Shown here: positions 1 to 12,295 of the stretch, one piece after another
How the letters are laid out: each line of letters begins with the position of its first letter
Position numbering within the stretch: the first letter of the stretch is position 1
DNA from: Segatella baroniae DSM 16972 = JCM 13447
GTDB taxonomy: Bacteria > Bacteroidota > Bacteroidia > Bacteroidales > Bacteroidaceae
Length of the DNA stretch: 64,000 nucleotides
Reading direction: 5' to 3'
Assembly: GCF_000426585.1 (NCBI RefSeq)
Contig: NZ_AUFQ01000005.1
Coordinates: 1-64,000 of the forward strand
Position numbers and translations under genes: made by a program
The notes under the pieces: model-generated
The model's database searches: none
Told to the model about the DNA's origin: nothing
Seen by the model: only the letters and a program-made list of their open reading frames with translations

Positions 1-35
1 ATAAATTAACAAATGAGAACCTTGATAATCAGTCG

Positions 36-52
36 GAGACCTCTGCAAAACC
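36..52. repeat. Terminal inverted repeat of the IS5-type element, left end
   Basis: GAGACCTCTGCAAAACC; perfect inverse of 1264-1280. Confidence 0.9.
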
Positions 53-169
53 TGCCACATTTTCAATTTTCATCTCTATAACCTTAAATGAGTGCATATT
101 TATAAGCAACTGATGCTATAGAAGACTACTTTAGTGCAAAATAGACCCTTTCTTTAGCGTATTTTCCCC

Positions 170-1217
170 TTATCTGATAGAATTTGACACAATAATCCCT
201 GGTGTTCGGTACAAGTTGTAGGCAATGGATTCCATAATATGCTGCGCATGTGCTTTTGAAAGTCCAACGTATCTTGCTATTCCAGCACCAAACCATCTAT
301 GCATAGAACCAAAGGTACGTTCTACTTTGTAGCGTATCTTACTTATAGCAACGTTGATACGCTGCTGCCTTTCGGTAATTTCATGTCCTCTTGTTCCTTT
401 ATGCATGATACGACTTTTAAGTTTCATACGTTTGAGGGTTTCTTTGTTCTCCATCGAGTCATATCCTTTATCGGCATAGACAAGTGCTTTCCGTGGCAAT
501 TTAGCTTTCTTCAGGGGTGTTTCTAAGTGTTTCATATCACTTTCATTGGCAGCTGTCGTTTCCTCGGCAAGCACCATTCCGTTTTCATCCGTTACCGTGT
601 GACGCTTGTAACCGAAGTGGAGCTTTCCCATCTTCTTTACCCAACGGGCTTCTGTGTCTACGTTAGGCTTGACAACTTCTTTGAGCATGGCTTTCTCCGA
701 AGCCTCCATGTTCTCATCCTCTTTTCTATCCTCAACGACCTCATAGCTCTTACCTCCGCGGGGGCGTATTCGTAATGCTGGCATCAATAATGGCGCCACG
801 CTTTACAATGATTCCTTTAGCTTCCAATTGCCTATTAAACTCCTCAAGAAGCGTATCATACAAATCCGCTTCAACAAGAATGTTGCGAAAACGGCACACA
901 GTAGTACTATCAGGAACAATATCTTCCATGCCAAGACCTGCAAAGCGACTAAAAGACAGGCGGTCGTTAACCTGATCTTCAACTTCTCCGTCACTCAGAC
1001 CATACCAGGTGCGGAGTAATTCAATCTTGAATAAAACAAGGCTGTCATAGCTGGGCCGGCCAGTAGACTTATAGCCTTTTGTATAAGCCACTTCTATTAT
1101 AGCACGAATAGGTGCCCAATCAATGATTGTATTTATTTGTGAAAAGAATGTCTGCTTGACCTTTCTTTGTCCAAGGAATAGGTCAGCAAAACTTGGAGAG
1201 GATAACTTTTGTTTCAT
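170..1217 (-). pseudogene. IS5-family transposase, split by a frameshift
   Basis: The product would cut and paste the IS through a DDE active site. The first part begins at the ATG at 1217 (MKQKLSSPSFADLFLGQRK) and carries the DUF772-like N-terminal region, including GRPSYDSLVLFKIELLRTWYG; it stops at TAA near 750 just after GAIIDASITNTP. The second part, in another frame, resumes with RGGKSYEVVEDR and holds the DDE core: HFGYKRHTVTDENG with the second acidic segment, ADKGYDS, and the C-terminal VERTFGSMHRWFG with the catalytic Glu. The frames meet at a run of five C on the coding strand (about 762-768), where skipping one base rejoins them. That fits an indel in a homopolymer or a programmed +1 shift; the sequence cannot decide. 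Confidence 0.85.
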
Positions 1218-1263
1218 ACGATAAAGGTACAAAGAATATTTAAGAAAGACAAATTGTAGAAGG

Positions 1264-1280
1264 GGTTTTGCAGAGGTCTC
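1264..1280. repeat. Terminal inverted repeat of the IS5-type element, right end
   Basis: Perfect inverse of 36-52, lying just upstream of the transposase start. Confidence 0.9.
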
Positions 1281-1313
1281 ATACCAATCCCATTTGGGAA
1301 GGATGCACATATA

Positions 1314-1357
1314 CCCATATAGGCACCATGTGGTACCTATATGGGCATGATGTCATG
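1314..1357. promoter_or_regulatory. Double palindrome upstream of the helix-turn-helix gene, putative operator
   Basis: CCCATATAGGCACC (1314-1327) is inverted at 1332-1345 as GGTACCTATATGGG: 14-bp arms, one mismatch, 4-base spacer. A second smaller palindrome, CATGATGTCATG, follows at 1346-1357. Both lie directly upstream of a -7-like box and the gene for a small DNA-binding protein, which suggests an autoregulatory operator. A binding site at the element end is an alternative. Confidence 0.5.
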
Positions 1358-1368
1358 TAATTCCATGA

Positions 1369-1376
1369 TACTTTTG
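1369..1376 (+). promoter_or_regulatory. Bacteroidales -7 box for the mobilisation operon
   Basis: TACTTTTG matches TAnnTTTG and lies 26 bases before the start codon at 1402. Confidence 0.5.
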
Positions 1377-1401
1377 CAGCAAACTTTTAAAACAAAGAGA
1401 C

Positions 1402-1698
1402 ATGCAAGGAAATTTCATCATGCTGCAAAAGGAAGATCTCAAGGAGGTCATTGCAGAAGTATTGGAAACAATGGTGGGTAAGAATCTGCTGAAAGAATCA
1501 ACTCCGGCAGAATCCACCGAGTATTACACCCGTGATCAGCTATGCGCCCGTCTGCACATCACCTATACTACGCTGTGGCGCATGGAGAAGCGTGGCGGCA
1601 TCCATGTCCATAAGATTGGCAGACGCAACCTGTATTCTAAGCAGAAAGTGGATGCACTGATAGCAAATGGACTTTCTTCTGATTCTGTAAGCAGGTAG
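1402..1698 (+). CDS. Small helix-turn-helix DNA-binding protein of a mobilisable element
   Basis: This is a 98-residue protein with an N-terminal helical stretch (LKEVIAEVLETMV) and then an HTH_17/MerR-like winged helix at about residues 42-90: YYTRDQLCARLHITYTTLWR, then GGIHVHKIGRRNLYSKQKVDALI, where the wing and its arginines would contact DNA. Proteins of this kind open the replication or mobilisation modules of many Bacteroides and Prevotella mobilisable elements, where they act like excisionase or transcriptional regulators. The stop codon is separated by one base from the ATG of the ATPase gene, so the two are cotranscribed and probably translationally coupled. The double palindrome upstream is its likely own operator. 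The precise role is inferred. Confidence 0.8.
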   Translation: MQGNFIMLQKEDLKEVIAEVLETMVGKNLLKESTPAESTEYYTRDQLCARLHITYTTLWRMEKRGGIHVHKIGRRNLYSKQKVDALIANGLSSDSVSR

Positions 1699-1699
1699 T

Positions 1700-2680
1700 A
1701 TGGCCATGGCAGAACTTAGCAAGAACATCCCCAAACCGCCAGAAGTGGATTACATTCTGTCCTCCTTTCGTGAGTTGCAGGAACAGCAAGCTGTTGATGC
1801 CGGTGGTTTTCATGTGTCTTCCATGAATGATTGCCTGAAAGCGGCCAAATCATTGCCGCCTCTTGTGGTTCTCTATCCGAACATTGTCCTTGAAGGTGAT
1901 CTCTGCATCATCTTCGGACAGTCAGGTATCGGCAAGACCATCTTCGCCATGCAGGTGGCAAGGGATATTGCCGCACGGGGGAAGCGTGTGCTCTACGCTG
2001 ACTTTGAGATGACACTGCGTCAGCTGGCCCTGCGGTACGAGGTTCCGAACTTCCCTCCTACCTTCTTCCGTGCGGAGATGGACAGGGACAATCTCATTGA
2101 TGATGTATTGAAGGGAATAGAAAAAGCAGCCGTGGCGAATCTTGCAGAGGTGGTGTTCATCGACAATATTACCGCCCTCAGCCAGTCGCTCGACAAAAGC
2201 TCTGACGCGGGCTCGCTCATGGCATCGCTGAACGCCTTGAAACGGAAGTATAACTGGACGCTGGTCGTCCTCAACCATGTTCCCAAGATATTCTCCGGTT
2301 CAGTCCCTCTTTCCCTGTCGGCCATACAAGGCTCCGCCAAACTCAACCAGTTGATAGACGATGCCGTGGGACTGGGGCAGTCAGTCCGTGACAAGTCGTT
2401 GGTCTATGTGAAGCAGTGCAAGTGGCGCAACGGCGAAGTTGTGCTCGATGCCGACAATGTGGCTCTGTATGAGCGAGCCAAGAATGGTGACGGCAATCTT
2501 TGCTTTACCTTTCGCGGCTATGACACGGAGGCCGCCCACCTGGAAACGGCATCTACTAGCGGGCGTGAGGAGCTGAGGGCGAAGGTCAAGGAATTGTCCT
2601 CGCAGTGCATGAAGCAGCAGGACATAGCCAAGGAATGCGGTATCACCCAGAGCAAGGTGTCAAGGCTTCTGAACGGCTGA
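1700..2680 (+). CDS. RecA-like AAA_25 ATPase, RepA-like
   Basis: This 326-residue protein carries a RecA-like ATPase fold with Walker A GQSGIGKT at residues 73-80 and Walker B VVFIDN at 151-156; LNHVPK about 40 residues later is a sensor-like segment. The C-terminus (MKQQDIAKECGITQSKVSRLLNG) is a helix-turn-helix, so the protein probably binds DNA itself. The family resembles plasmid RepA/DnaB-like hexameric helicases and is standard in Bacteroidota mobilisable plasmids and islands, placed between a small HTH gene and a toprim-like gene, as here. The probable role is replication initiation or unwinding of the excised element. The start at 1700 is chosen because it lies one base past the preceding stop. 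Confidence 0.85.
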   Translation: MAMAELSKNIPKPPEVDYILSSFRELQEQQAVDAGGFHVSSMNDCLKAAKSLPPLVVLYPNIVLEGDLCIIFGQSGIGKTIFAMQVARDIAARGKRVLYADFEMTLRQLALRYEVPNFPPTFFRAEMDRDNLIDDVLKGIEKAAVANLAEVVFIDNITALSQSLDKSSDAGSLMASLNALKRKYNWTLVVLNHVPKIFSGSVPLSLSAIQGSAKLNQLIDDAVGLGQSVRDKSLVYVKQCKWRNGEVVLDADNVALYERAKNGDGNLCFTFRGYDTEAAHLETASTSGREELRAKVKELSSQCMKQQDIAKECGITQSKVSRLLNG

Positions 2681-2688
2681 TTATTCAC

Positions 2689-2733
2689 TTTATGCAGTTT
2701 ATGCAATATGCATAAGTGCATAAATTGCATAAA
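2689..2733. repeat. Five-copy iteron-like array, TTTATGCA/TGCATAAA
   Basis: Two direct copies of TTTATGCA (2689-2696, 2698-2705) are followed by three copies in the opposite orientation: TGCATAAG at 2709-2716 and TGCATAAA at 2717-2724 and 2726-2733. The whole array is close to a mirror palindrome centred near 2707. It starts 9 bases after the ATPase stop and just before the next gene. Such arrays serve as origin iterons or as operators. A further inverted pair of the same 7-mer occurs at 5123-5142, beyond the relaxase gene. Confidence 0.6.
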
Positions 2734-2737
2734 ACGC

Positions 2738-3427
2738 ATGGCAAACATGGAAAAGCAGGACTTGAAGGGAATGTCGGCGAGCAAGGCTGCGCCCAATGAT
2801 CGGATGTTGATAGAGATACCCCAACAGGATATAGGATGCCATTATTCTTCTCTTACGGATTATCTGGATAAGGCAATTGGTTATGATTCCAAGATATTGT
2901 CGGCTATTGATAGTTTAATTATGAGATTTCATCTGGGAGCCGTTACCAAACTTGTGAACGGACACTATGGCACAGTGCTGCCTCGGATTAACCGGAATAA
3001 CAAGGTCGTAGGAGGAAGTGTGCTGTACTTTGATACGGACAGTGGGGCAATCCTGCAAAGAGAGCCCTTGGTGGAACATCTTTATAGCTGGTACTGCTTC
3101 GACTATTACACGGATGATGAGGTCTTCTTTGGTGAGCATCTGCTTTCAAACAAGCCCGTCGCCATTGTGCAGGAGGAAAAGACGGCCTTGCTGGGTACGC
3201 TGGCGGAACTGGCCGTTGACTGGCTGGCGGTTGGCGAGGGCTGCAATCTCACCAAAGGAATGATGAGTAAACTGGCTGGCAGGCGAGTCGTCCTTTTCCC
3301 TGATGATATAAGCTGTGATTATTGGGAAGAGCAGTTCGGGGCAAGGTTCAAGGTGGACCGTGGCTTTGTCCATCGGGACATTAACCGATACCTGATTGAC
3401 AGAATCAGAGGTCGTGGCAGTCCTTGA
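2738..3427 (+). CDS. Toprim-like DUF6371-type protein of a mobilisable element
   Basis: No catalytic motif is certain here, but size and position match the DUF6371/toprim-like proteins encoded between the RepA-like ATPase and the relaxase in Bacteroidota mobilisable elements, some of which are thought to be primase-related. The C-terminal half has alternating hydrophobic strands and acidic residues compatible with a toprim fold: KPVAIVQEEKTALLGTLAEL, then AGRRVVLFPDD. An upstream in-frame ATG at 2708 lies inside the iteron array, so the ATG at 2738 or 2747 is the better start, giving about 229 residues. It is the third gene of the operon. Function is inferred from neighbourhood and weak motif resemblance. 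Confidence 0.6.
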   Translation: MANMEKQDLKGMSASKAAPNDRMLIEIPQQDIGCHYSSLTDYLDKAIGYDSKILSAIDSLIMRFHLGAVTKLVNGHYGTVLPRINRNNKVVGGSVLYFDTDSGAILQREPLVEHLYSWYCFDYYTDDEVFFGEHLLSNKPVAIVQEEKTALLGTLAELAVDWLAVGEGCNLTKGMMSKLAGRRVVLFPDDISCDYWEEQFGARFKVDRGFVHRDINRYLIDRIRGRGSP

Positions 3428-3679
3428 ACTCGGGGGGGACAGGGCTCTGCCCTTGTTATAGCCCACTATAACTACCCGCTGCGCTTTCGTAGTTGTGGGC
3501 CCAAGGCCAGCCTTGGAGAACCGGCGGGGATGACTCTCCCCCTGCACCCTCCACTCGGTGGCATCTGCCCCCAAGACCCCTGACCAGAGCGTGACCCTCT
3601 CTCTGGACTCTCCGCTTAGGGAGCCTCCCTAAGAACCTTATGAAAAGAAAAACCAACAATCATTTAATTCCCTTTTGTT
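3428..3679. other. Hairpin-rich non-coding region, oriT candidate
   Basis: This 250-base gap directly precedes the relaxase gene and is crowded with inverted repeats: AGGGC/GCCCT (3441-3453), GTTATA/TATAAC (3455-3472), AACTAC/GTAGTT (3470-3494), CCAAGG/CCTTGG (3501-3516), and an 8-bp perfect hairpin CTTAGGGA/TCCCTAAG (3615-3633). In MobV-type systems the transfer origin lies immediately upstream of the mob gene. No coding potential is evident. The nick site cannot be placed by eye. Confidence 0.5.
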
Positions 3680-5098
3680 ATGACACAAATGACATCGGTA
3701 CACATCAAGCCCTGCAATATCGGGCAAAGTGAGGCACACAACCAACGGACAAAGGCATATCTCGACCACATCAATACAGAGAAGCTTTATATCAGGAAAG
3801 ACCTGATACCTGAGAACCAATCGTGGACATCGGAACTGCAAGGCGATATGACCTTGCGGCAGTATTACGATGCCATTGGCAGAATGGTGAAGGAAAAGAC
3901 GGGCAGGGCCATGCAGACCAAGGAACGGGAGCGAATCAACAAGAAGACGGGCAAAGTGACCAAGATTGCCGGCTGTACCCCCTTGCGTGAGGGCGTCGTG
4001 GTGTGCAAGGCAGACACCACCATGGAGCAGTTGCAACATTTCGCCGACCTTTGTCGGCAGCGTTTCGGTATTACGGCCATACAGATACACCTCCATCGTG
4101 ACGAGGGGCATTGTCTTGAACCGAATGACACATCTACATGGAAGCCTAACTATCACGCCCATGTCATCTGGGACTGGATGAACCACGAGACAGGTAAGTC
4201 CTACAAGCTGGACAATGAGGACATCAGCCTCGTGCAGGACATGGCGGCCGAGGCATTGGGAATGGAGCGCGGCGTTTCCAAGTTGGAGACGGGCAAGCTG
4301 CATCTGGAACGGAATGACTATATCGTGGCCAAACAGAAGCGTGAGTTGGATGAAAGCAAGAAACAAGCGGAGAAGCTGGCAAAGGAGAACGAGCAGAAAG
4401 TTCTCGCTTGTGAAAAGTTGGATAGGGAAATCCACGACAAGCAGGAAAAAGCCAATCGGGAGAATGGCAGCGCCATCCTGTCGGGCTTGGCCAACCTTGC
4501 AGGAAAGGGCAAGTATGCACAATTGGAGGCGGAAAATGAAGAAATGAAAAAACAAGTTGCTGCAATTCCACAAGTGGTTGCTCAGCAAGTAGAAACCTTA
4601 ACCATTACCTATAAAGAGGAGATAACTAAGGAGCGGAATCGTGCTGATTTCTGGCTTGCTGAATGTAATAAACAAGAGCGTATCTACAAAGGGTTGCTCA
4701 CACAATCGAAGAATCGGGAGGTTGACCTCAAGCAAGAGTTGCAGCAACGTGATAACATTATCGCTACAATGAGGGCTGGGCTAACAGATTTCCTACGAGG
4801 ATTCACGATTATTTGCCAAAATGCCATTAATGCCGTTATCGACTTTGCTCATGATACTAAATTGCAGCACTTTACCTTCCCTCAGGCTACAGCCATCAAC
4901 GAATATCTTTCAGAAGAGTCAAGCGACAGGCGTAATGGTGCCACTATTCTGGTCCTCCTCACCCGTCCCTTTCTTAGTTTGTTTGAGCATCAGAAAGGAA
5001 AGGCGGAAATTAAAAATGTGGTTAATAACTTTGATTGGTACAAGGAAAAACAGAAGCAGCAAGAGGAATTAAGAAATAAACAAAGATTTAGAAGATAG
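3680..5098 (+). CDS. MobV-type mobilisation relaxase
   Basis: The 472-residue product should nick the element's oriT and carry the strand into a recipient using the transfer apparatus of a co-resident conjugative element. The relaxase core lies in about the first 220 residues. HLHRDEGH (137-144) and NYHAHVIWDW (157-166) form the metal-binding histidine cluster of the family. From about residue 225 a long Lys/Glu-rich region (KQKRELDESKKQAEKLAKEN onward) predicts a coiled coil, followed by a C-terminal domain of unknown role. The hairpin-rich gap upstream is the likely oriT. No type IV secretion genes are present, so the element would be mobilisable rather than self-transmissible. Confidence 0.85.
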   Translation: MTQMTSVHIKPCNIGQSEAHNQRTKAYLDHINTEKLYIRKDLIPENQSWTSELQGDMTLRQYYDAIGRMVKEKTGRAMQTKERERINKKTGKVTKIAGCTPLREGVVVCKADTTMEQLQHFADLCRQRFGITAIQIHLHRDEGHCLEPNDTSTWKPNYHAHVIWDWMNHETGKSYKLDNEDISLVQDMAAEALGMERGVSKLETGKLHLERNDYIVAKQKRELDESKKQAEKLAKENEQKVLACEKLDREIHDKQEKANRENGSAILSGLANLAGKGKYAQLEAENEEMKKQVAAIPQVVAQQVETLTITYKEEITKERNRADFWLAECNKQERIYKGLLTQSKNREVDLKQELQQRDNIIATMRAGLTDFLRGFTIICQNAINAVIDFAHDTKLQHFTFPQATAINEYLSEESSDRRNGATILVLLTRPFLSLFEHQKGKAEIKNVVNNFDWYKEKQKQQEELRNKQRFRR

Positions 5099-5122
5099 AT
5101 AGGCTATGAAATAATGGTACTC

Positions 5123-5142
5123 TGCATAAGAGGAATTATGCA
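5123..5142. repeat. Inverted pair of the iteron 7-mer after the relaxase gene
   Basis: TGCATAA (5123-5129) and TTATGCA (5136-5142) face each other across 6 bases. This is the same 7-mer that builds the array at 2689-2733. It lies in the 95-base gap between the convergent relaxase and terB-like genes and could be a second binding site or a weak terminator stem. Confidence 0.5.
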
Positions 5143-5193
5143 AGGGTATCATACTTCACGCATTCAAATCAAGATAAAGTCTACTAAATGATT

Positions 5194-5541
5194 CTATAAT
5201 GAATAGTATGGACTAATTCCCTTAGTCATTTTGGCCATTTTTATAAGTCGATTTATTATCGCTTGTTCTTTGGGGTGTAAGTAGCCATCAACTTCTGCCA
5301 TTGACAGAAATAGGCTGTGTGCATATTTTAATTTTTCTACTGACATCTGCATAACTATTTGCTGTGAAATGAGTTCATCCATTGAACGACAATTCTCTAA
5401 ATCTGCAATTTTTATGTCTTGCTCTGCAAAGAAATTATCCATAAACTCCTCTTCCTTTGGATCAACAATACCATCGGCATTCATTATTTGTGTTAGCACA
5501 CTGACAATGGCATATTTTTCGTAGGTTGTAAACTGTATCAT
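5194..5541 (-). CDS. TerB-like domain protein
   Basis: A 115-residue all-helical protein with TerB/DUF533-type features: AIVSVLTQIMNADGIVDPKEEEFMDNFF (a D-G-x-V-D-P-x-E acidic loop) and a second half-repeat, LSMAEVDGYLHPKEQAIINRLI. The paired acidic loops are the family's presumed metal-binding sites. TerB domains occur in tellurite-resistance clusters and in some phage-defence loci, for example together with helicases in Shango. Its ATG overlaps the stop of the upstream helicase-fusion gene by 4 bases (ATGA), so the two are coupled and very likely work together. It is the last gene of the four-gene operon. Confidence 0.7.
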   Translation of the reverse strand: MIQFTTYEKYAIVSVLTQIMNADGIVDPKEEEFMDNFFAEQDIKIADLENCRSMDELISQQIVMQMSVEKLKYAHSLFLSMAEVDGYLHPKEQAIINRLIKMAKMTKGISPYYSL

Positions 5542-8189
5542 ATTGATTGTTCTCTAAAAAAATCATCATATATAGTGTTCCCTATACTAATAATGTATAG
5601 GTTTTCCCTTGCACGTGTTATTGCCGTGTAGATTGTCTCAGGTGTAGCTGGGTTGAATGTACCTCCAGCGATAGTACTTTCATCTTCCAATATCAGTATC
5701 ACTGCAGGAGACTCCCATCCTTTAAAACTTTGTACTGTTGATAGTTTCAGGCACCGCTTATCAGTTGTAAATTGCAGCTTTCTTGATCGCTCAAGTGCTT
5801 CGTAATCTCTCTTAAATTGCCAATTTGCATTACTTATATCGGTAACATTATGAATAGATTTCAAGCGTTCGTAATTTTCGCTGTTGACAAAGGTGACTTC
5901 CGTTTTATTACCCGTAGCTTGTCTGTAGAATTTGTCCACGTTTCGCAGAAGCTGTATCGTTGATGCCAGAACAACGAAATTTTTGACCTCTTTACCATCG
6001 TTGCGTATGTACTGAGTGATTGTTGAAATAAGTTTTTCTAACGAAAAATTATTTCTTATGTCACTATAAGAAACGATTTTGAAATTCAGTGTATTCCCCA
6101 TAGTCTCTTCTGTTTGTATATCATCCTTAGGTATGTTTAACATGTAAGTTGATTGAAAAGCCATTGCGAGTTTCGCCAAACGTGGGTTGGTAAAGCGGTG
6201 GCTGTTGCTCAGTTGCCTATTCCATTGACCACCAATGATACCTAGCCTTATGTCGCCATTAGAATCGAGCGGTCTGTGATATACGTTCTGTTTTGGATCG
6301 CCAAATACAACGAATTCTCCGCCTGGCACAAGAAAATTCTGCATGACGATTCTCAGCCATTCTGTTGTATAGTCCTGCACTTCATCTACAAAGATGGCGG
6401 CATAATGTTTCTTTATCTCTACTTTCTCAAAATGATGTAAGTCATCATAAGAACCGAACGAAACGTGCAGTTTATATTCAGATGATTGTATTCTAAAGAA
6501 CTGATGATAGTGGTAAATATCGACCTTGTTCCAAGAGAAATCCTCCCGTAGTTCAGAAAGTCGGAACTTCAGGTAGTTTGTCAAAGTGATATTGTATGTA
6601 AGTATCAGCACATCGCCGCCGGTGCGCTTCATGGCGTTCACAGCTCTTTGTGCAAGTACATAGGTTTTTCCTGCACCTGCAACGCCGCTAATCTTTTGCT
6701 GCGTATCAACGCTCTTAACAAGCTCTCTCTGTGCTCCCTTGGGCTCTAAACCATTTCGCCCCTCTTGGTAAGAGTGCCATGATGGTGAGATGATGGAAGC
6801 CAGCTTGCGTTTCACGCAATCGTCAAAATAGTGGTTGTGGTGTGTTAATCCAATATCTTGGAAAAGGTTTCGGCAGGTTTGCTTATCATTTATAAGCTCG
6901 CTACCATACAGATGGGTGTAATTTTTCTGTCCACTATCTGTATGAAAAAAATTACAGACTTCCTGCTTGTTGTTTTCGGTAAAAACAACGATTTTTTTGA
7001 TTAATGAGAAATTGCGTTTATCCTCAATGGTGCTAATCAGCAGTTCCTCTATCCCGTCTTTAATGCTGTTTTGGCACAAGCTAATCAAGTCGATAGGCGA
7101 CTGGTATGTTTGGCTGGAGCATAGAATCTCTTTTCCATCAGCCGACAACTGGCATTCTTCTAAGGATTCTTCGAATACATTTACTAAAAGTACACCTGTA
7201 TTCGGGCGTACAATAATAAAATCAACAGTCGCTTCATTAACCACAGGACTTATATATAATATATCATCTATCGCCAATATGCTTTGCAGACGGTAAGCCA
7301 CTCTTGCCTTTTGCGGTGTAAGTATTTTATTCTGAATTTGTAACTGCAAATCATAGTCGTTAAACACTTTTTCGGCAGAACTAGAAATGCTTGCCATTTT
7401 ACCAAAGTCTAACGGTACTCCGTTATAGGCAAAGCAACGTGTTATGCAGGTAAATGAGTGTCCTGTTCGTTTGGTGCGGTCAAACCGAGCACTGTCGATG
7501 CAGCTGAAATATTGTTGGTCACCAAACGCTGAACAAAACTGCTCAATTCTGTAAGCAGCGGCGTTCTTTGGTCCGATGCATATTATATAATGTTGCCCGT
7601 GTGAGGAGGCTACCATTTTGGCCACGCGGACTAAATCAATGGTAGCTACATCAAGGATGTTGGAAAAAATATGTATTACATTTGTATAGGTATAGCCTAT
7701 GGAATTCAGTGTGTTGTCGGATGTTTCCGTAGCTGGCATAAACTGGTTGATGGGCACAATCTCAATGTTTCCTTGCACTATTTTCATTAGGTTACACTCT
7801 GCCCGCTGCATAGCATTCGGCGACGGTTCAACAAGCGTAATCCGTTTAACCCAGTTCAGCAGCTGATGCTGTTTCAGTATATCAACAATAGTGCCTGAGC
7901 CGATGCCTTGTCCGCAGCCCCAGTCTACAATTTCAATACTTCCCTTGAGTTTGTCGAAAGGAAAGTTCATCATGGCTGCCCTGCACTTTACAGAGTGCAT
8001 TTCACCATAAGCCGACATATAGCAGTTTAGGGCTTCTTCGCTCGCAAGCAGATCTACACCGTGGTTCAGTTCCGGGTGTGTCCACGGCCGTGTCTTCCAT
8101 TGTGTTGGCAAATATTCGTGGCATCGGTCAATGATGTCATATATGGTGCTACACGCTGACTTTGCAATATCGTCCTTGTAATTTGTCAT
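5538..8189 (-). CDS. Methyltransferase-like / NERD-like / SF1 helicase fusion protein
   Basis: Started at the ATG at 8189, two bases after the upstream stop, this is 883 residues. Residues about 85-240 resemble a class I SAM methyltransferase: motif I VDWGCGQGIGSG at 88-99 and an acidic strand end, LVEPS, about 25 residues later. Residues about 300-430 resemble a NERD nuclease-related region (EATVDFIIVRPNTGVLLVNV), but the usual E-x-K catalytic pair is not clear. From about 480 it is a superfamily 1 UvrD/Rep-type helicase: Walker A GVAGAGKT 502-509, motif II FVDEVQD 600-606, motif III GDPKQN 630-635, motif V TVQSFKGWE 818-826, motif VI YTAITRAREN 854-863. All helicase motifs look intact. The fusion suggests DNA or RNA surveillance; a defence role is inferred from context. 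Confidence 0.75.
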   Translation of the reverse strand: MTNYKDDIAKSACSTIYDIIDRCHEYLPTQWKTRPWTHPELNHGVDLLASEEALNCYMSAYGEMHSVKCRAAMMNFPFDKLKGSIEIVDWGCGQGIGSGTIVDILKQHQLLNWVKRITLVEPSPNAMQRAECNLMKIVQGNIEIVPINQFMPATETSDNTLNSIGYTYTNVIHIFSNILDVATIDLVRVAKMVASSHGQHYIICIGPKNAAAYRIEQFCSAFGDQQYFSCIDSARFDRTKRTGHSFTCITRCFAYNGVPLDFGKMASISSSAEKVFNDYDLQLQIQNKILTPQKARVAYRLQSILAIDDILYISPVVNEATVDFIIVRPNTGVLLVNVFEESLEECQLSADGKEILCSSQTYQSPIDLISLCQNSIKDGIEELLISTIEDKRNFSLIKKIVVFTENNKQEVCNFFHTDSGQKNYTHLYGSELINDKQTCRNLFQDIGLTHHNHYFDDCVKRKLASIISPSWHSYQEGRNGLEPKGAQRELVKSVDTQQKISGVAGAGKTYVLAQRAVNAMKRTGGDVLILTYNITLTNYLKFRLSELREDFSWNKVDIYHYHQFFRIQSSEYKLHVSFGSYDDLHHFEKVEIKKHYAAIFVDEVQDYTTEWLRIVMQNFLVPGGEFVVFGDPKQNVYHRPLDSNGDIRLGIIGGQWNRQLSNSHRFTNPRLAKLAMAFQSTYMLNIPKDDIQTEETMGNTLNFKIVSYSDIRNNFSLEKLISTITQYIRNDGKEVKNFVVLASTIQLLRNVDKFYRQATGNKTEVTFVNSENYERLKSIHNVTDISNANWQFKRDYEALERSRKLQFTTDKRCLKLSTVQSFKGWESPAVILILEDESTIAGGTFNPATPETIYTAITRARENLYIISIGNTIYDDFFREQSI

Positions 8190-8191
8190 GG

Positions 8192-9259
8192 CTATTTTCC
8201 TGTAATGGTATCTGCGTTTCTGTTTTCCTGATGCCGCTTCCAGTTTGCTATTGCAAGTTGCTTGGTAGTATTGGCATAGCAATACTCACAGAGATGCGGA
8301 CAAGTGTTATACTCGCCAATATCCTTTGCTGCCATACAGCCACAGAAAGCCCGCTGACCGGAGTCTTTCTTGTGTGCGCTCTGAAAATATTGGTTGTTAG
8401 GCAGCGCAATGGCTCCCTCCGGAAGAGGAGAGCTGTCATCAAATAGCGACAGGGTAGGCATGGGAAGAATTTTTACCTTCATAAAGTCCATTAAGACCTT
8501 ATCCTGCCACGCCAACCGTGTTATCAAGTCTCCGTCGATGCAGCGGTTGTGTGCGATGCCATATTTCTCTATATCTATCTTCTCGCTGCACGTAGCGAGC
8601 TGATAGTTCCACCCAAGCTTACGGTTTAACTCCGATAACTTAGCTGCAAACTCTTCCATCTGTGGTGTTACCCATTCCCTGTAGAGTATGCCGCTTCTTT
8701 CGAGGTTTTTCTTCACTTTTCGGTATATCCCAATATCGGCATACGAGAAAACAAACTTCTCGGTGTAGCCTTTTAACTGATTACCAACATTCTGTACCTT
8801 GTACAAAAGGTCATCCACTGATATGTTGTCGGTTAAAATCAAGGGGTCGAAGCGCCACACTACGCTGCCTACCCCTAGTTCATGGACAAGCAGTTTGAAT
8901 GTTTCTATGCGAGTGGCTAATGGCGGAACTTTCTCCAAGTGTTCCTGTTCATAGTCGTTCAACGAGTACTGGATGTAGCATTTTATATTTCTCTCCTTCA
9001 GAACATCGAGATAAGGTAGAAGCGGTCGAGGGTTTTTGGACCAGAAAACTATGAAGCGCGTTTGTTCATATGACACATACGACTTTACCCCGTTAAAAGG
9101 ATTCATCCATGCTGAGTAGCCTTGCTTCAGGCGGTCGAAGAACCAATCGGAATAGAAAGCTGGTATATCGGTGCTTCTGCTTGCTGAAACGATGACGGGG
9201 GCCTGTGCTTTCACCGTCTGTCCATCAATAATTATATCTTTATGTTGCCAAGTTGCCAT
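8192..9259 (-). CDS. DUF1848 family iron-sulfur protein
   Basis: A 355-residue protein that begins with the DUF1848 hallmark VIVSASRSTDIPAFYSDWF and includes FIVFWSKNPRP and VVWRFDPLIL. Near its C-terminus lies a cysteine cluster: CGC at 306-308 and CPHLCEYC at 320-327, the latter a CxxxCxxC spacing as in radical SAM [4Fe-4S] enzymes but placed at the wrong end of the chain, which is normal for this family. The biochemical role of DUF1848 is not established; nucleic-acid repair-like chemistry has been suggested by resemblance only. It lies 33 bases downstream of the 76-residue gene and 2 bases upstream of the helicase-fusion ATG, so it belongs to the same transcript. Confidence 0.75.
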   Translation of the reverse strand: MATWQHKDIIIDGQTVKAQAPVIVSASRSTDIPAFYSDWFFDRLKQGYSAWMNPFNGVKSYVSYEQTRFIVFWSKNPRPLLPYLDVLKERNIKCYIQYSLNDYEQEHLEKVPPLATRIETFKLLVHELGVGSVVWRFDPLILTDNISVDDLLYKVQNVGNQLKGYTEKFVFSYADIGIYRKVKKNLERSGILYREWVTPQMEEFAAKLSELNRKLGWNYQLATCSEKIDIEKYGIAHNRCIDGDLITRLAWQDKVLMDFMKVKILPMPTLSLFDDSSPLPEGAIALPNNQYFQSAHKKDSGQRAFCGCMAAKDIGEYNTCPHLCEYCYANTTKQLAIANWKRHQENRNADTITGK

Positions 9260-9292
9260 AGCTTAAAATATTAAATCGTCAGAATAATCATG

Positions 9293-9523
9293 TTAACCTG
9301 TGAAGTTATTAAAATCAGCTTCAGGTTCTTCTATATTGCAATAAGACCTTCTTTCTGTTTCTCGGCTCCATTTGAGAAAAAGTTTTTGAACGTTTCTTGA
9401 ATAGAGCTGCAAGTGGGTATCTTCACTTTTTTGATGGATAACAAAATAAGGAGCCATAAGTTCCTGTAATGGCCTTCTGTAGTTATAGACAATACTTTTA
9501 TATTTCACTAGATTTCCTAACAT
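9293..9523 (-). CDS. Small hypothetical protein opening the four-gene operon
   Basis: The family of this 76-residue ORF is not recognised. It is rich in Tyr, Arg and Lys (YKSIVYNYRRPLQEL, KLFLKWSRETERRSY) with an acidic tail (NIEEPEADFN), has no signal peptide or membrane segment, and could be a small nucleic-acid-binding or regulatory partner. It is the first gene of the minus-strand cluster and is 33 bases from the DUF1848 gene. The 109 bases between it and the tRNA must hold the operon promoter, although no good TAnnTTTG box was found there. The coding call rests on position and a plausible start. Confidence 0.5.
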   Translation of the reverse strand: MLGNLVKYKSIVYNYRRPLQELMAPYFVIHQKSEDTHLQLYSRNVQKLFLKWSRETERRSYCNIEEPEADFNNFTG

Positions 9524-9578
9524 AACTCTGCTTTTAGAAAGTTCGCCAAAAGTTCACAGTATGGATTATTAACGAAAC

Positions 9579-9610
9579 AAAGGAACTACGAGTGATTTCG
9601 TAACTCCTTT
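9579..9610 (-). terminator. Hairpin downstream of tRNA-Met
   Basis: AAAGGAACTACG (9579-9590) and CGTAACTCCTTT (9599-9610) form a 12-bp stem with two internal mismatches, 23 bases past the tRNA 3' end on the tRNA strand. It may end the tRNA transcript; the following U tract is poor. Confidence 0.35.
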
Positions 9611-9632
9611 ATTTATAAGATTTTAATCTTTG

Positions 9633-9706
9633 TAGCGGGGGTGGGACCCGAACCCACGACCTCCGGATTATGAATCCGACGCTCTAACCAGCTGAGCTAT
9701 CCCGCC
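9633..9706 (-). tRNA. tRNA-Met (CAT anticodon)
   Basis: The minus strand folds as a 74-nt tRNA. The 5' end is GGCGGGATAGCTCAGCTGG, the anticodon loop TTCATAA gives CAT, and the T-arm is GTGGG-TTCGGGT-CCCAC with discriminator A. CCA is not encoded. The sequence resembles elongator tRNA-Met rather than tRNA-Ile2 of Bacteroidota. One oddity is that position 7 (A) faces C at 66, a mismatch at the base of the acceptor stem, and 1-72 is a G-U wobble. The accessory island begins right at its 3' side, a common integration position. Confidence 0.9.
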
Positions 9707-9742
9707 ATCATTTTCAGCAAAGCAAACCGGCATTTGCGGGTG

Positions 9743-9750
9743 CAAAGGTA
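9743..9750 (-). promoter_or_regulatory. -7 box for tRNA-Met
   Basis: Minus-strand TACCTTTG (TAnnTTTG) lies 36 bases upstream of the tRNA 5' end. Confidence 0.6.
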
Positions 9751-9793
9751 ATGCTTTTTATGGAATAGACAAAGAAAAGCGAAAGTTTTTTCT

Positions 9794-9801
9794 TAAATTT
9801 G
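9794..9801 (+). promoter_or_regulatory. -7 box for the metalloprotease gene
   Basis: TAAATTTG matches TAnnTTTG and lies about 50 bases before the ATG at 9851. Confidence 0.5.
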
Positions 9802-9850
9802 CACTGCTTTCGCAAGCATAAAGAGAATTAACAGCAATCAAAATCATAGT

Positions 9851-12250
9851 ATGAAAAGAGTAATCGTTGCGCTGTCGCTGGGTCTCATGATAGGGACACC
9901 GGTGCAGGCGAAGAAGAAAAAGAAAGTGGAAGCACCGAAAAAAGAGGTGCGGACGCCCGCAAAAGCGGGACTGTTCAACGTGCAGCACTGGAAAGACAAG
10001 TACTATTTCCAGGTTCCCGACTCGTTGCTTGGCCGGCTGTTCATGGTCAACACCCGCTATGTCTCCACCCCCGTAGACGCAGGTCTCTATGGCGGTGAAC
10101 TCGCCAACAGCCAGGTTCTCTACTGGGAAAAGCGGGGAAAGGAACTCCATTTGCGGGCCAACATGTACGACACCCGTGTCGATTCCACCGACGCCATCGC
10201 CTTGGCTGTGCGCAACGCGAGCCAGGATCCCATCGTCTACGCACTCAAAATAGACTCCACCGTGACCGACACGGCGGGCAAAAAGCTCTACAGTGTCGAG
10301 GTGACGAACATGTTCAATGCCGACAATTCCGTGTTCAGCATTTACAATAGCTTGAAGGACAGGTTTGGAATCACGTCGTTCAAGAAGGACTTGTCGTACA
10401 TCGACTACATCCACACGTTCCCCATGAACACCGAAGTGGTCACGGTGAAGACCTTCGGCTCGAAGAGTACGACCAAGCTGCCGGCCGGACAAGAGACCGG
10501 AAATGTGACAATCAAGCTCAACACGTCGTTCGTCCTGCTGCCCAAAGAGCCGATGGCCTTCCGCACTTTCGACCCGCGTGTGGGCTATTTCACCGAATCT
10601 TTCAGCGAGTTTGGCGACAACCAGCAGAAAGCCGAGCGGCGGAAAATCATCTCACGGTGGCGCTTGGAGCCGAAGGATGTCGAGGCCTACAAGCGCGGCG
10701 AACTGGTGGAACCCGTGAAACAGATCGTCTATTACATCGACCCCGCCACGCCGAAGAAGTGGCGTCCCTACCTCATTGCGGGTGTGGAAGATTGGAACAA
10801 GGCCTTCGAGGCAGCCGGATTCAAGAATGCCATCACCGCCAAGGAGTGGCCCAACGACTCTACCATGAGCCTGGAAGACGCACGCTACTCGGTCATCCGC
10901 TATCTGGCCAGCGACATTCCCAATGCCTACGGCCCGCACGTGAGCGACCCACGGTCGGGCGAAATCATCGAAAGCCACATCGGCTGGTATCATAACGTGA
11001 TGTCGTTGCTCCACGACTGGTATCAAACGCAGGCCGGAGCCATCGACCAACGGGCACGGAAGCCGAAATTCGACGACGAGTTGATGGGCCAACTCATCCG
11101 TTTCGTCAGCTCACATGAAATCGGTCACACCCTCGGACTGCGCCACAACATGGGTGCCAGCTCCGCAACGCCCGTCGACAGCCTGCGCAACAAGGCCTGG
11201 GTGGAGCGACATGGACACACCGCTTCCATCATGGACTACGCCCGTTTCAACTATGTGGCGCAGCCGGAAGACAACATCGGCGAGGCCGGAACATTCCCCC
11301 GCATCGGCGATTACGACAAGTGGGCCATCAACTGGGGCTACCGCTGCTTCCCCGACAGCAAGGGCGAGAAGGACGAAAGGCTCACGCTCAACAAGATGAC
11401 GATAGCCAAACTCAAGGAAAGCAGACGCTACTGGTTTGGCGGTGAGGGCAACGACAACGACCCGAAGGCCCAGACCGAAGACCTCGGCGACGACGCCATG
11501 AAGGCTGGAAGCTATGGAATCAAGAACCTGAAACGCATCATCAAGCACCTGCCGGAGTGGAATTACGAGGAAGGCGACATGGATGAGAACGTGCGGTCGG
11601 CCTACCGCAGCCTGGTGCAACAGATGAGTCGGTATGCCAATCACGTAGCGGCCAACATCGGAGGAGGCTACCATGACTTCAAGAGTGTGGAGCAACCGGG
11701 CGAAACTTTCACACCCGTCGACCGCGCAACGCAGAAGCGTGCGCTGGCATGGCTCGAGGAGAATGTCTTCAAAGAGCCCACCTGGCTCATCTCGGAGCCT
11801 TATGTCAGGCGACTCGTCCGCGTACCGGAGAACAACATCTTCGGCATTGCCGACCGCGTATTGGACAAGTTGACCAGTGCCATGACCATCAATTTGGTGA
11901 GCAAACACGCCACGGGTGCCGGCAGCTACCAGCCCATGGAACTTGTCAACGACCTCGTCGGCTGTCTCTTCCGCTCGACCGCCACTGGCACGAAGGCCAC
12001 ACTTTGGACGCGCCATCTGCAGCGTCGGGCCGTCGGCAACTTCATCAAGGCCTGGAAAGTGACCATCGTCGACGAGCAACGCCCCTACGCCCTGGCCGCC
12101 ATCCAGCAGATCAAGACGCGGCTGCAGCAGGCCCGCACGGCCGACGCGGCCACCCGTGCCCACTATGCCGACCTGCTTCAGCAAATCAAGATAGCCCTTT
12201 CGGGCATGCCCACGGCGAAGGAAAGCAAGGTGGGCGCAGCGATGGAGTGA
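9851..12250 (+). CDS. Secreted zinc-dependent metalloprotease, metzincin type (DUF5117/DUF5118/DUF4953)
   Basis: This is a 799-residue exported protein. A signal peptide (MKRVIVALSLGLMIGTPVQA) is followed by a Lys-rich stretch. The zinc site HEIGHTLGLRH is at residues 422-432, matching HExxHxxGxxH with three zinc-binding histidines, and a Met-turn (SIMDY) follows about 35 residues later, so this is a metzincin with apparently intact catalysis. Length and flanking sequence fit the Bacteroidota DUF5117/DUF5118/DUF4953 family, often encoded beside SusC/SusD/DUF4843/PKD-like operons. Such an operon lies just downstream on the opposite strand. The likely job is periplasmic or surface degradation of proteins to peptides taken up by that system, which is an inference. 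Confidence 0.85.
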   Translation: MKRVIVALSLGLMIGTPVQAKKKKKVEAPKKEVRTPAKAGLFNVQHWKDKYYFQVPDSLLGRLFMVNTRYVSTPVDAGLYGGELANSQVLYWEKRGKELHLRANMYDTRVDSTDAIALAVRNASQDPIVYALKIDSTVTDTAGKKLYSVEVTNMFNADNSVFSIYNSLKDRFGITSFKKDLSYIDYIHTFPMNTEVVTVKTFGSKSTTKLPAGQETGNVTIKLNTSFVLLPKEPMAFRTFDPRVGYFTESFSEFGDNQQKAERRKIISRWRLEPKDVEAYKRGELVEPVKQIVYYIDPATPKKWRPYLIAGVEDWNKAFEAAGFKNAITAKEWPNDSTMSLEDARYSVIRYLASDIPNAYGPHVSDPRSGEIIESHIGWYHNVMSLLHDWYQTQAGAIDQRARKPKFDDELMGQLIRFVSSHEIGHTLGLRHNMGASSATPVDSLRNKAWVERHGHTASIMDYARFNYVAQPEDNIGEAGTFPRIGDYDKWAINWGYRCFPDSKGEKDERLTLNKMTIAKLKESRRYWFGGEGNDNDPKAQTEDLGDDAMKAGSYGIKNLKRIIKHLPEWNYEEGDMDENVRSAYRSLVQQMSRYANHVAANIGGGYHDFKSVEQPGETFTPVDRATQKRALAWLEENVFKEPTWLISEPYVRRLVRVPENNIFGIADRVLDKLTSAMTINLVSKHATGAGSYQPMELVNDLVGCLFRSTATGTKATLWTRHLQRRAVGNFIKAWKVTIVDEQRPYALAAIQQIKTRLQQARTADAATRAHYADLLQQIKIALSGMPTAKESKVGAAME

Positions 12251-12295
12251 CGCACATAGGCTGCGGTATCTATACACAATACCATAAAATCTAAA

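Follow-up and report, generated by a model that had tools for sequence, protein, structure and literature searches.

Shango is described as a TerB-like protein, an ATPase and a DEAD/DEAH helicase encoded in one operon (PMC10250203). The locus examined here also encodes a TerB protein with a helicase. Unlike Shango it has no ATPase gene, its helicase is of the SF1 UvrD type and is fused to a methyltransferase-like domain, and DUF1848 is present. Sng models found no match among the window proteins at E 1. The comparison with Shango made in the original prediction is therefore not supported, and the missing ATPase gene together with the lack of a Sng match rules out membership. Here the window is the whole 64,000-nt stretch of Segatella baroniae DNA (contig NZ_AUFQ01000005.1, positions 1 to 64,000), and MT denotes the methyltransferase-like N-terminal domain of its 883-aa fusion protein and of the relatives of that protein.

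PADLOC agrees with the prediction that the window proteins as a set match no named system. Single components are represented there. PADLOC already links DUF1848 to defence, as RTasDUF1848 of the DRT set (P0002 matches at 1.2e-36), but the partner of DUF1848 here is an MT-effector gene, and no reverse transcriptase was present among the window proteins scanned. C3a187, whose name presumably denotes a link to type III CRISPR, has the same NERD-like plus UvrD architecture (1.7e-35). In contrast to C3a187, the fusion carries MT in front and has lost ExK, and DUF1848 and TerB are adjacent. Related loci with other effectors match DpdF (5e-80) and PsyrT (8e-55) of Dpd/PsyrT (L042, SF2 type) or MkoC (3e-60) of Mokosh (L052), in each case over the motor part. 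In the literature searched, neither the name DUF1848 nor the accession PF08902 was found, and no title or abstract start described a DUF1848 plus MT-effector layout.

A mobile element carries, at its tRNA-Met end, three intact minus-strand genes that encode DUF1848, the fusion and TerB (Table 1). A tRNA-flanking mobile island had been proposed and is real, as the 46-bp tRNA-Met repeat recurs elsewhere in the genome, on contig C31, where it adjoins an ORF reading like a tyrosine recombinase. Window positions 36–330 are 96.6% identical to the end of C31, suggesting that C31 joins the window at this end. No attachment repeat was found within window positions 1–10200.

Table 1. Features of the mobile element and the DUF1848 locus in the window.
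Feature	Coordinates	Strand	Evidence
IS5-family transposase, two overlapping frames, contig end	170..1310	-	NCBIfam IS5 2.8e-38, 1.6e-34, each under the model's cut-off
HTH_17 excisionase-like protein	1402..1698	+	Pfam 3.7e-8; NCBIfam excise 1.3e-5, under its cut-off
AAA_25 ATPase of mobile element, RepA-like by our own reading	1700..2680	+	Pfam AAA_25 9.7e-17
DUF6371 protein of mobile element	2708..3427	+	Pfam 3.5e-29
472-aa ORF, mobilisation relaxase-like (HUH-like motifs by our own reading; no Pfam match at E 0.01)	3680..5098	+	
TerB protein, 115 aa, partner of UvrD effector type	5194..5541	-	Pfam PF05099 2.4e-7
883-aa fusion: MT domain, NERD-like region, SF1 (UvrD-type) helicase	5538..8189	-	Pfam; PADLOC C3a187 NERD+UvrD 1.7e-35
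SF1 helicase domain, about aa 484-878, motifs intact	5556..6740	-	Pfam + 29-row alignment
NERD-like region, about aa 285-400, catalytic ExK missing	6990..7337	-	29-row alignment
MT domain, about aa 1-275, METTL17/Rsm22-like methyltransferase fold, common to effector types	7365..8189	-	Alignments + AlphaFold
DUF1848 protein, 355 aa, radical-SAM-like, system's constant gene	8192..9259	-	Pfam PF08902 2.1e-86
76-aa remnant, C-terminal end of ~210-aa gene	9293..9523	-	Alignment to L033/L079 ORF
46-bp attachment-site repeat (tRNA-Met 3' end)	9631..9676	.	Second copy on contig C31, 98%
tRNA-Met gene, insertion site of element	9632..9706	-	ARAGORN

The genes had been read as a four-gene operon. Their packing (gaps of 33 and 2 nt and a 4-nt overlap), their coordinates and the 883-aa length of the fusion proved exact, and three of the four genes are intact. 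The 76-aa product of the fourth aligns to residues 139–200 of a 210-aa ORF found upstream of DUF1848 at L033/L079 (E 1.5e-10) and is unmatched in Pfam and PADLOC (E 1) and in NCBIfam (E 0.1). Judged by this alignment, gene 4 is a 5'-truncated remnant. TerB lies next to the UvrD fusion at 28/41 UvrD loci free of contig-end truncation, as opposed to 0/31 SF2 loci, and is absent from the other 13/41. Because gene 4 is a remnant and TerB is specific to one effector type, the four-gene operon is not the unit.

To define linkage, the best 80 of 397 MT loci from named genomes were counted. DUF1848 is directly upstream of MT in 69, elsewhere in the locus in 7 and missing in 4. Gene order is kept and the gaps between DUF1848 and MT are mostly -4 to +12 nt, so the predicted linkage extends beyond this genome. 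Among 399 genomes drawn from the family, DUF1848 occurs in 29/29 MT-positive genomes versus 36/370 of the others; MT was sought with P0001 alone in this draw, so that divergent copies may have escaped. Of the four genomes with a DUF1848-less MT locus, three carry the gene elsewhere. An SF2-type MT gene without any DUF1848 was found in two genomes, that of L132 and G474 (100% complete). No ORF of at least 60 aa with CX3CX2C was found at L098, L117 or L132 (L126 was left out), giving no sign of another radical-SAM gene in the place of DUF1848 there. At L303, the G474 locus, no CX3CX2C ORF was seen among ORFs >150 aa or matching a model. Genomes holding either gene alone rule out an obligatory tie in either direction. 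Elsewhere DUF1848 adjoins other methyltransferase-like genes, namely a NERD-MTase (L242) and a protein with an Rsm22-like C-terminus (L255), and 6/12 short-clade loci have an overlapping methyltransferase-like gene. G680, from the distant family f17, has DUF1848, a split UvrD, an ADP-ribosyltransferase and MT on two contig ends. No Sir2 or macrodomain partner of DUF1848 was matched among the loci examined. DUF1848 and the N-terminal MT domain together form the conserved unit, and the effectors are exchangeable.

Pfam gives MT only a marginal hit (Methyltransf_23, 0.12), but AlphaFold predicts a class I methyltransferase fold with high confidence (pLDDT 92.2, pTM 0.91), in keeping with the SAM methyltransferase-like domain originally proposed for the 883-residue protein. 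The closest structure by VIA is chain 7 of human mitoribosome small-subunit assembly intermediates (8csr; Z 16.9 over 219 residues), which we take to be METTL17. This value is three units over the first other enzyme (13.9), and 8om2, titled METTL17/Rsm22, scores Z 14.3. The MT model thus has the METTL17/Rsm22 methyltransferase-domain fold. In other respects MT differs: it is 10–12% identical, lacks a conserved cysteine set and is fused to effectors. P0001 has no match to Pfam Rsm22 (PF09243) at E 1 and no usable relative in the PDB (E up to 0.001), and the best PDB match of an MT profile is YecO/CmoA-type (0.003). Only L255, among the DUF1848-linked proteins scanned with Pfam, matches Rsm22 (6.2e-4, under the cut-off). 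D89, G93, Q94, E121, P122 and N177 are invariant in 68 rows of the MT alignment.

Seven cysteines, a CX3CX2C motif near the C-terminus plus Cys224, 240, 306 and 308, are kept in 141/141 aligned DUF1848 proteins, and CX3CX2C is the cluster motif of radical-SAM enzymes. A PDB sequence search with P0002 (E up to 1) gave no usable relative, and Foldseek alone gave no match to the AlphaFold model (pLDDT 91.6) under E 0.001. Among solved structures, VIA ranks radical-SAM enzymes nearest, with Elp3, RlmN and NifB among them. Rows 1–21 (Z 8.0–9.5) read as such enzymes, some of them by our own assignment, and other barrels follow at 6.5–7.9. The aligned ranges suggest a permuted order. DUF1848 is read as a putative radical-SAM enzyme that would cleave SAM; its best match (Elp3) reaches a Z of only 9.5. 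The fold matches give no substrate for MT or DUF1848.

The remainder of the fusion was examined in a 29-row alignment of the window's protein and 28 chosen relatives. The UvrD N-terminal domain is recognised by Pfam (2.2e-11) and SF1 (UvrD/Rep) motifs I, II, III, V and VI are conserved in all rows, as expected of the complete UvrD-type helicase that had been predicted. NERD nucleases have the catalytic motif D...ExK. The NERD-like region that the prediction named is present, but of these residues the Asp (D323) alone is kept and ExK is absent in 29/29 rows, window included, which rules out an active NERD nuclease on sequence. NERD domains of L242, L243 and L255 keep ExK. Because the NERD region of the fusion is probably dead, the window's cassette has no recognised nuclease.

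The part of the gene that follows MT differs by clade and encodes a UvrD helicase, often with TerB, an SF2 helicase, a Mokosh-like helicase-PIN, an LRR protein or an ADP-ribosyltransferase. At 89 matched loci a UvrD/other label changes once on the MT tree versus 26 times on the DUF1848 tree (AU p 1e-6). With 8 effector labels, the same loci need 7 changes on the MT tree, the least possible; a 116-row MT tree needs 9, where the least possible is 7. Effector type tracks the MT tree, which rules out frequent swapping of effectors within MT clades. The DUF1848 tree needs 33 label changes, compared with a mean of 37 in 100 shuffles, at least one of which gave 31. DUF1848 and the effector are evolutionarily decoupled.

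Junctions were located by comparing pairs of loci. In cross-type pairs with at least 80% DUF1848 DNA identity, homology is lost within -79 to +23 nt of the DUF1848 stop (16/16). In same-type pairs it runs on for at least 300 nt past the stop in 53/65 and stops at the junction in 12/65. Flanking homology resumes behind the cassette, in L070/L139 at the TerB end. DUF1848 fragments away from contig edges are 3' ends in 5/5 cases, one before a second MT gene, and such remnants adjoin other cassettes. Exchange at the 3' end of DUF1848 replaces the MT-effector gene as a cassette, in one pair together with TerB. Rhs/CDI loci have a constant 5' part and an exchanged 3' cassette, and their orphan modules are displaced. 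By analogy, the constant 5' part, the exchanged 3' cassette and the 3' remnants beside other copies may be comparable here. The junction differs in lying between two genes, not inside one toxin gene, and no secretion part was recognised.

Our best, though tentative, reading of the cluster is a modular conflict system carried on mobile DNA and most likely directed against phages, with a probability of roughly 0.4. The defence role is inferred. Conflict-type partners include Mokosh-like helicase plus PIN, AlbA_2, ADP-ribosyltransferase, PDDEXK_13 and T5orf172. At E 1e-10, 110 neighbours match 87 PADLOC families versus 32 for 110 control proteins from ten of the same genomes; many of these families are redundant, the neighbours also include housekeeping genes, and the enrichment is modest. 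Further points against the reading are the MT loci and genomes without DUF1848, the UvrD loci without TerB, the low Z of DUF1848, the lack of a recognised nuclease in this window's cassette, the same-type pairs that stop at the junction, and the type-A and L255 methyltransferases, whose alignment to MT is limited to the SAM motif region. The constant radical-SAM-like DUF1848 precedes a gene with MT and an exchangeable C-terminal effector, in this window the SF1 helicase with its TerB partner. In the proposed mechanism DUF1848 and MT would both use SAM and would act one after the other on a shared substrate, probably a structured RNA (tRNA or rRNA) and less likely DNA. The modification product, or its absence, would signal self to the fused motor, and the helicase and partner proteins would then disrupt foreign or infected-cell nucleic acid. 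Such logic would resemble restriction-modification with an unusual modification couple. The fullest form of this idea is doubtful: a new class of immune platform, in effect RNA-level restriction-modification, in which an RNA modification is installed or read by a radical-SAM enzyme together with a METTL17-like methyltransferase, and any of many effectors is plugged in behind MT through exchange of cassettes at the radical-SAM gene's 3' end.

Alternatively, the genes might repair or modify element or host nucleic acid as housekeeping or mobile-element maintenance, with no conflict role. DUF1848 does occur without MT: f17 is the family of 51/55 DUF1848-positive genomes in a 296-genome phylum draw, 8/9 DUF1848-bearing f17 genomes tested have no MT match, and solitary DUF1848 genes exist. 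However, the tree sets MT-linked DUF1848, with the type-A and solitary ones, apart from the f17 and short clades, and its presence is patchy (29/399 genomes). The mobile DNA in this window, the effector exchange and the conflict-type partners also argue against maintenance, which we regard as rather unlikely. A constant part of two SAM-type proteins with varying effectors could also be a SAM or redox guard. Phages may carry SAM-cleaving enzymes, and DUF1848 and MT might sense loss of SAM or Fe-S integrity in infection, without modifying nucleic acid, and release the helicase effector in an abortive-infection logic. METTL17, the nearest fold relative of MT, is termed an Fe-S cluster checkpoint for mitochondrial translation in the title of one paper (PMC11046306). 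Yet no cysteine set for a cluster is conserved in the MT alignments, and it is not obvious why simple sensing should require all the conserved cysteines of DUF1848, making a guard unlikely.

The near independence of DUF1848 and effector histories, DNA conservation limited to DUF1848 in many pairs and the two genomes with MT but no DUF1848 would suit a DUF1848 that is a mere homology anchor of a recombination hotspot, with no functional tie to the adjoining MT-effector gene. Such an anchor would not explain the kept order and close spacing, the DUF1848 genes elsewhere in 3/4 genomes whose MT locus lacks one, or the other methyltransferase-like neighbours in other lineages, and we consider it improbable. 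A plain variant of a known system, either Shango-like or a type ISP-like restriction enzyme, is very improbable. TerB and helicase occur together and methyltransferase and helicase are fused, but there is neither a Shango ATPase gene nor a Sng match, the MT alignment lacks the DPPY-type motif that marks DNA amino-methyltransferases, and no target-recognition domain was recognised.

If the reading as a modular conflict system is right, at least five effector types share a single constant enzyme couple, whose chemistry becomes a key to a group of as yet unnamed conflict systems, most of them from Bacteroidales. DUF1848, a family of unknown function, would gain a testable role. The picture is of a mobile cluster of gut bacteria with one constant enzyme gene, next to which a large helicase gene is exchanged, a cassette exchange between neighbouring genes that may resemble Rhs/CDI evolution. 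It also supplies a search rule: behind DUF1848, look for an MT domain and the part fused to it. Within the family draw, 6 further genomes encode full-length relatives of the fusion, at 62–64% identity.

The best-supported novelty of this analysis is a modular system that joins a constant core of DUF1848 and a methyltransferase-like domain (MT) to exchangeable effectors; in a few SF2 cases DUF1848 is missing. The original prediction described a four-gene minus-strand operon in the window. Its spacing was correct and three genes are intact, but the fourth, the 76-aa gene, is a remnant that aligns with residues 139–200 of a 210-aa ORF sited upstream of DUF1848 in loci L033 and L079. The three genes and the remnant are flanked on one side by a mobilisation-type region and on the other by tRNA-Met. 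Pfam named DUF1848, the UvrD-type helicase and TerB. In PADLOC the best match of the fusion was C3a187 (NERD+UvrD) and DUF1848 matched RTasDUF1848, while the TerB protein had no match at E 1.

Coordinates of the features discussed
Feature	Locus or contig	Position	Size
TerB gene	window	5194–5541 (-)	
Fusion (MT, NERD-like region, UvrD-type helicase)	window	5538–8189 (-)	883 aa
DUF1848 gene	window	8192–9259 (-)	355 aa
Remnant	window	9293–9523 (-)	76 aa
Stretch matching the end of C31	window	36–330	295 bp
DUF1016/YhcG-like ORF	C31 (L294)	4135–5232	365 aa
ADP-ribosyltransferase/ADP-ribose glycohydrolase fusion	L060	6227–7780	
Same fusion type	L063	7022–8656	
Same fusion type	L304/L305		
Gene recurrent upstream of DUF1848	L033	787–2409	~535 aa
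Same gene	L034	4780–6381	~535 aa
Same gene, likened by size and place	L056	4515–6119	~535 aa
SF2-type MT gene	L303 (G474)	7763–12262	1499 aa
Stand-alone MT homologue	L295	6881–7723	
Viperin-family protein	L295	2754–3680	

The 46-bp 3' end of tRNA-Met has a second copy, at 98%, on another contig of the same genome, C31. The end of C31 is 96.6% identical to the start of the window. Because of the shared repeat and this matching end, the element probably extends across C31 and the start of the window, over about 13 kb. Adjoining the 46-bp copy is a 492-aa ORF that resembles a tyrosine recombinase by eye and had no match in the PDB at E 0.001. Beside this integrase-like ORF, the same element carries an ORF that by eye resembles a DUF1016/YhcG nuclease.

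Across the window's family (399 genomes), relatives of the fusion were sought with the fusion alone as query, so distant MTs can escape. Matches were found in 37 genomes: 10 full-length or nearly so, 19 in the MT domain only and 8 in the helicase only. DUF1848 exceeded the cut-off in 29/29 MT-positive genomes versus 36/370 of the others. ORF maps of 34 loci (33 genomic and one phage record) revealed that MT either forms the common N-terminus of proteins differing greatly in length and content or stands alone. It was nearly always near DUF1848 (29/31 mapped MT loci); the two exceptions, L057 and L062, are truncated by a contig end or sit on a contig of 3.5 kb. An MT-alignment scan of 84,980 genomes, one for each species, gave 397 relatives. 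Among the best 80, most of them Bacteroidales by title, DUF1848 immediately preceded MT in 69, lay at another place in the locus in 7 and was absent in 4 (L098, L117, L126 and L132). Three of these four genomes encode DUF1848 elsewhere; none was found in the genome of L132. In a phylum draw of 296 genomes, MT matches at E 0.001 turned up in 12, of which only three reached below 1e-50: G680, G474 and the window's genome. G680, of the distant family f17, has DUF1848, a split UvrD, an ADP-ribosyltransferase and MT spread across two contig ends. G474 (stated completeness 100%) has an SF2-type MT gene and no DUF1848 match anywhere in the genome.

The effectors in the best 80 of the 397 loci were UvrD (43), SF2 (33), Mokosh-like (1) and other or broken (3). 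The family draw added LRR or Sel1, AlbA_2 as its own gene, and ADP-ribosyltransferase/glycohydrolase with a split UvrD gene. Partner genes are specific to the effector type. Among loci that are not truncated at a contig end, TerB was the next gene in 28/41 UvrD loci versus 0/31 SF2 loci; one more TerB adjoins the split UvrD gene of a locus classed as other. A protein of about 132 or 310–350 aa neighbours the system in many SF2 loci; three of these proteins yielded weak coiled-coil-type Pfam matches below the cut-off. ADP-ribosyltransferase/ADP-ribose glycohydrolase fusions occur in several DUF1848-MT loci, and in L067 and L095 a tandem pair of MT cassettes follows a single full DUF1848. In L033 and L034, Pfam assigns AlbA_2, HATPase_c_4 and a Fic-like C-terminus to the recurrent ~535-aa gene.

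Exchange of effectors behind DUF1848 was examined with trees of the window and 102 of the 118 loci fetched, in which DUF1848 and MT are close and on one strand (16 were left out); removal of near-duplicates left 89 loci. On these quick trees, many of whose inner branches are weak, the effector labels required 7 changes on the MT tree versus 33 on the DUF1848 tree; shuffled labels (n=100) gave a mean of 37 changes, with at least one shuffle as low as 31. UvrD versus the rest required 1 and 26 changes, respectively. A single clade of UvrD-linked DUF1848 was rejected by the AU test (p 1e-6).

DNA comparison agrees with this decoupling. L056 (SF2) and L038 (UvrD) share 94% DNA identity in DUF1848 and 93% in a PDDEXK_13 gene behind the effector, while their MT proteins have 30% identity across 198 aa. 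L051/L142 and L070/L139 have a similar break, and in the latter pair homology resumes at the TerB end. In these non-independent pairs, which share loci, homology stopped between -79 and +23 nt of the DUF1848 stop in 16/16 cross-type pairs at 80% or more, and between -80 and +30 in 85/86 at 75–80%. In contrast, it ran at least 300 nt further in 53/65 same-type pairs at 80% or more, with 12/65 also ending at the junction. DUF1848 fragments outside full genes were found in 6/118 loci. One of them, in L080, is a contig edge. The remaining five are 3' ends without exception: those of L123, L127 and L141 follow SF2 cassettes, that of L147 precedes MT, and that of L095 precedes a second MT gene, which belongs to the LRR clade. 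Both the architecture and cassette exchange are well supported.

DUF1848 also occurs away from MT. In the phylum draw 55 genomes were positive, 51 of them in f17, for which the number of genomes drawn is not stated. An MT-profile search of nine positive f17 genomes matched only G680, and reading the neighbours of eight f17 DUF1848 loci revealed no methyltransferase motif. Other methyltransferase-like genes adjoin DUF1848 in type-A operons and in 6/12 loci of a separate short clade. DUF1848 is solitary in several genomes, and on a Roseburia plasmid it adjoins Sir2 and macrodomain genes. Another type of DUF1848 operon (L242, L243, L235, L245 and similar) comprises a NERD-methyltransferase, a UvrD helicase, a gene of about 750–820 aa and DUF1848, the first two identified by Pfam in L242, where the operon also has an AlbA_2 gene. 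In L219 and L221–L225 of the short clade the upstream methyltransferase-like gene shares a 4-nt overlap with DUF1848, and the five such genes with a GCGP motif have a Cys-rich N-terminus.

Both core proteins are predicted enzymes. In an MT alignment of 68 rows the invariant residues include D89, G93, Q94, E121, P122 and N177. The closest VIA matches of the AlphaFold model (pLDDT 92.2) were to METTL17/Rsm22, a mitoribosome assembly factor: a human chain, which we take to be METTL17 (Z 16.9), and 8om2, which carries that title (Z 14.3), versus Z 13.9 for the next other enzyme. The DUF1848 alignment (66 rows) has a mean identity of 60%, and seven cysteines are kept in 141/141 aligned proteins, short fragments left out. 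VIA rows 1–21 of its model (pLDDT 91.6) read as radical-SAM enzymes (Z 8.0–9.5), with other barrels from 7.9 down. Since the CX3CX2C sits at the C-terminus and the start of the model falls, in several target alignments, after the target's N-terminal part, the modelled fold suggests a circular permutation. The four further cysteines could bind a second cluster or zinc.

The original prediction was confirmed as an observation, and its interpretation was right only in part. Among the PADLOC families matched by system neighbours are type I restriction and NucC-like ones. After restricting the proteins to 180–900 aa and excluding system genes and five loci, 87 PADLOC families came from 110/181 neighbours versus 32 from 110/180 controls from ten of the same genomes. 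Neighbours also include relaxases, AlbA_2 and housekeeping genes. This content supports a candidate defence role without showing it. We propose that the system may act by a restriction-like mechanism directed at RNA.

Of 2.9 million viral contigs, just 4 contained an MT relative. With the fusion as query, one phage record and 37 plasmid records matched; two of the 37 matched in the MT domain, both from Moraxella. On a Moraxella osloensis plasmid, 3.2 kb separate the stand-alone MT homologue (profile E 4.5e-33) from a gene whose annotation is viperin-family antiviral radical-SAM protein.
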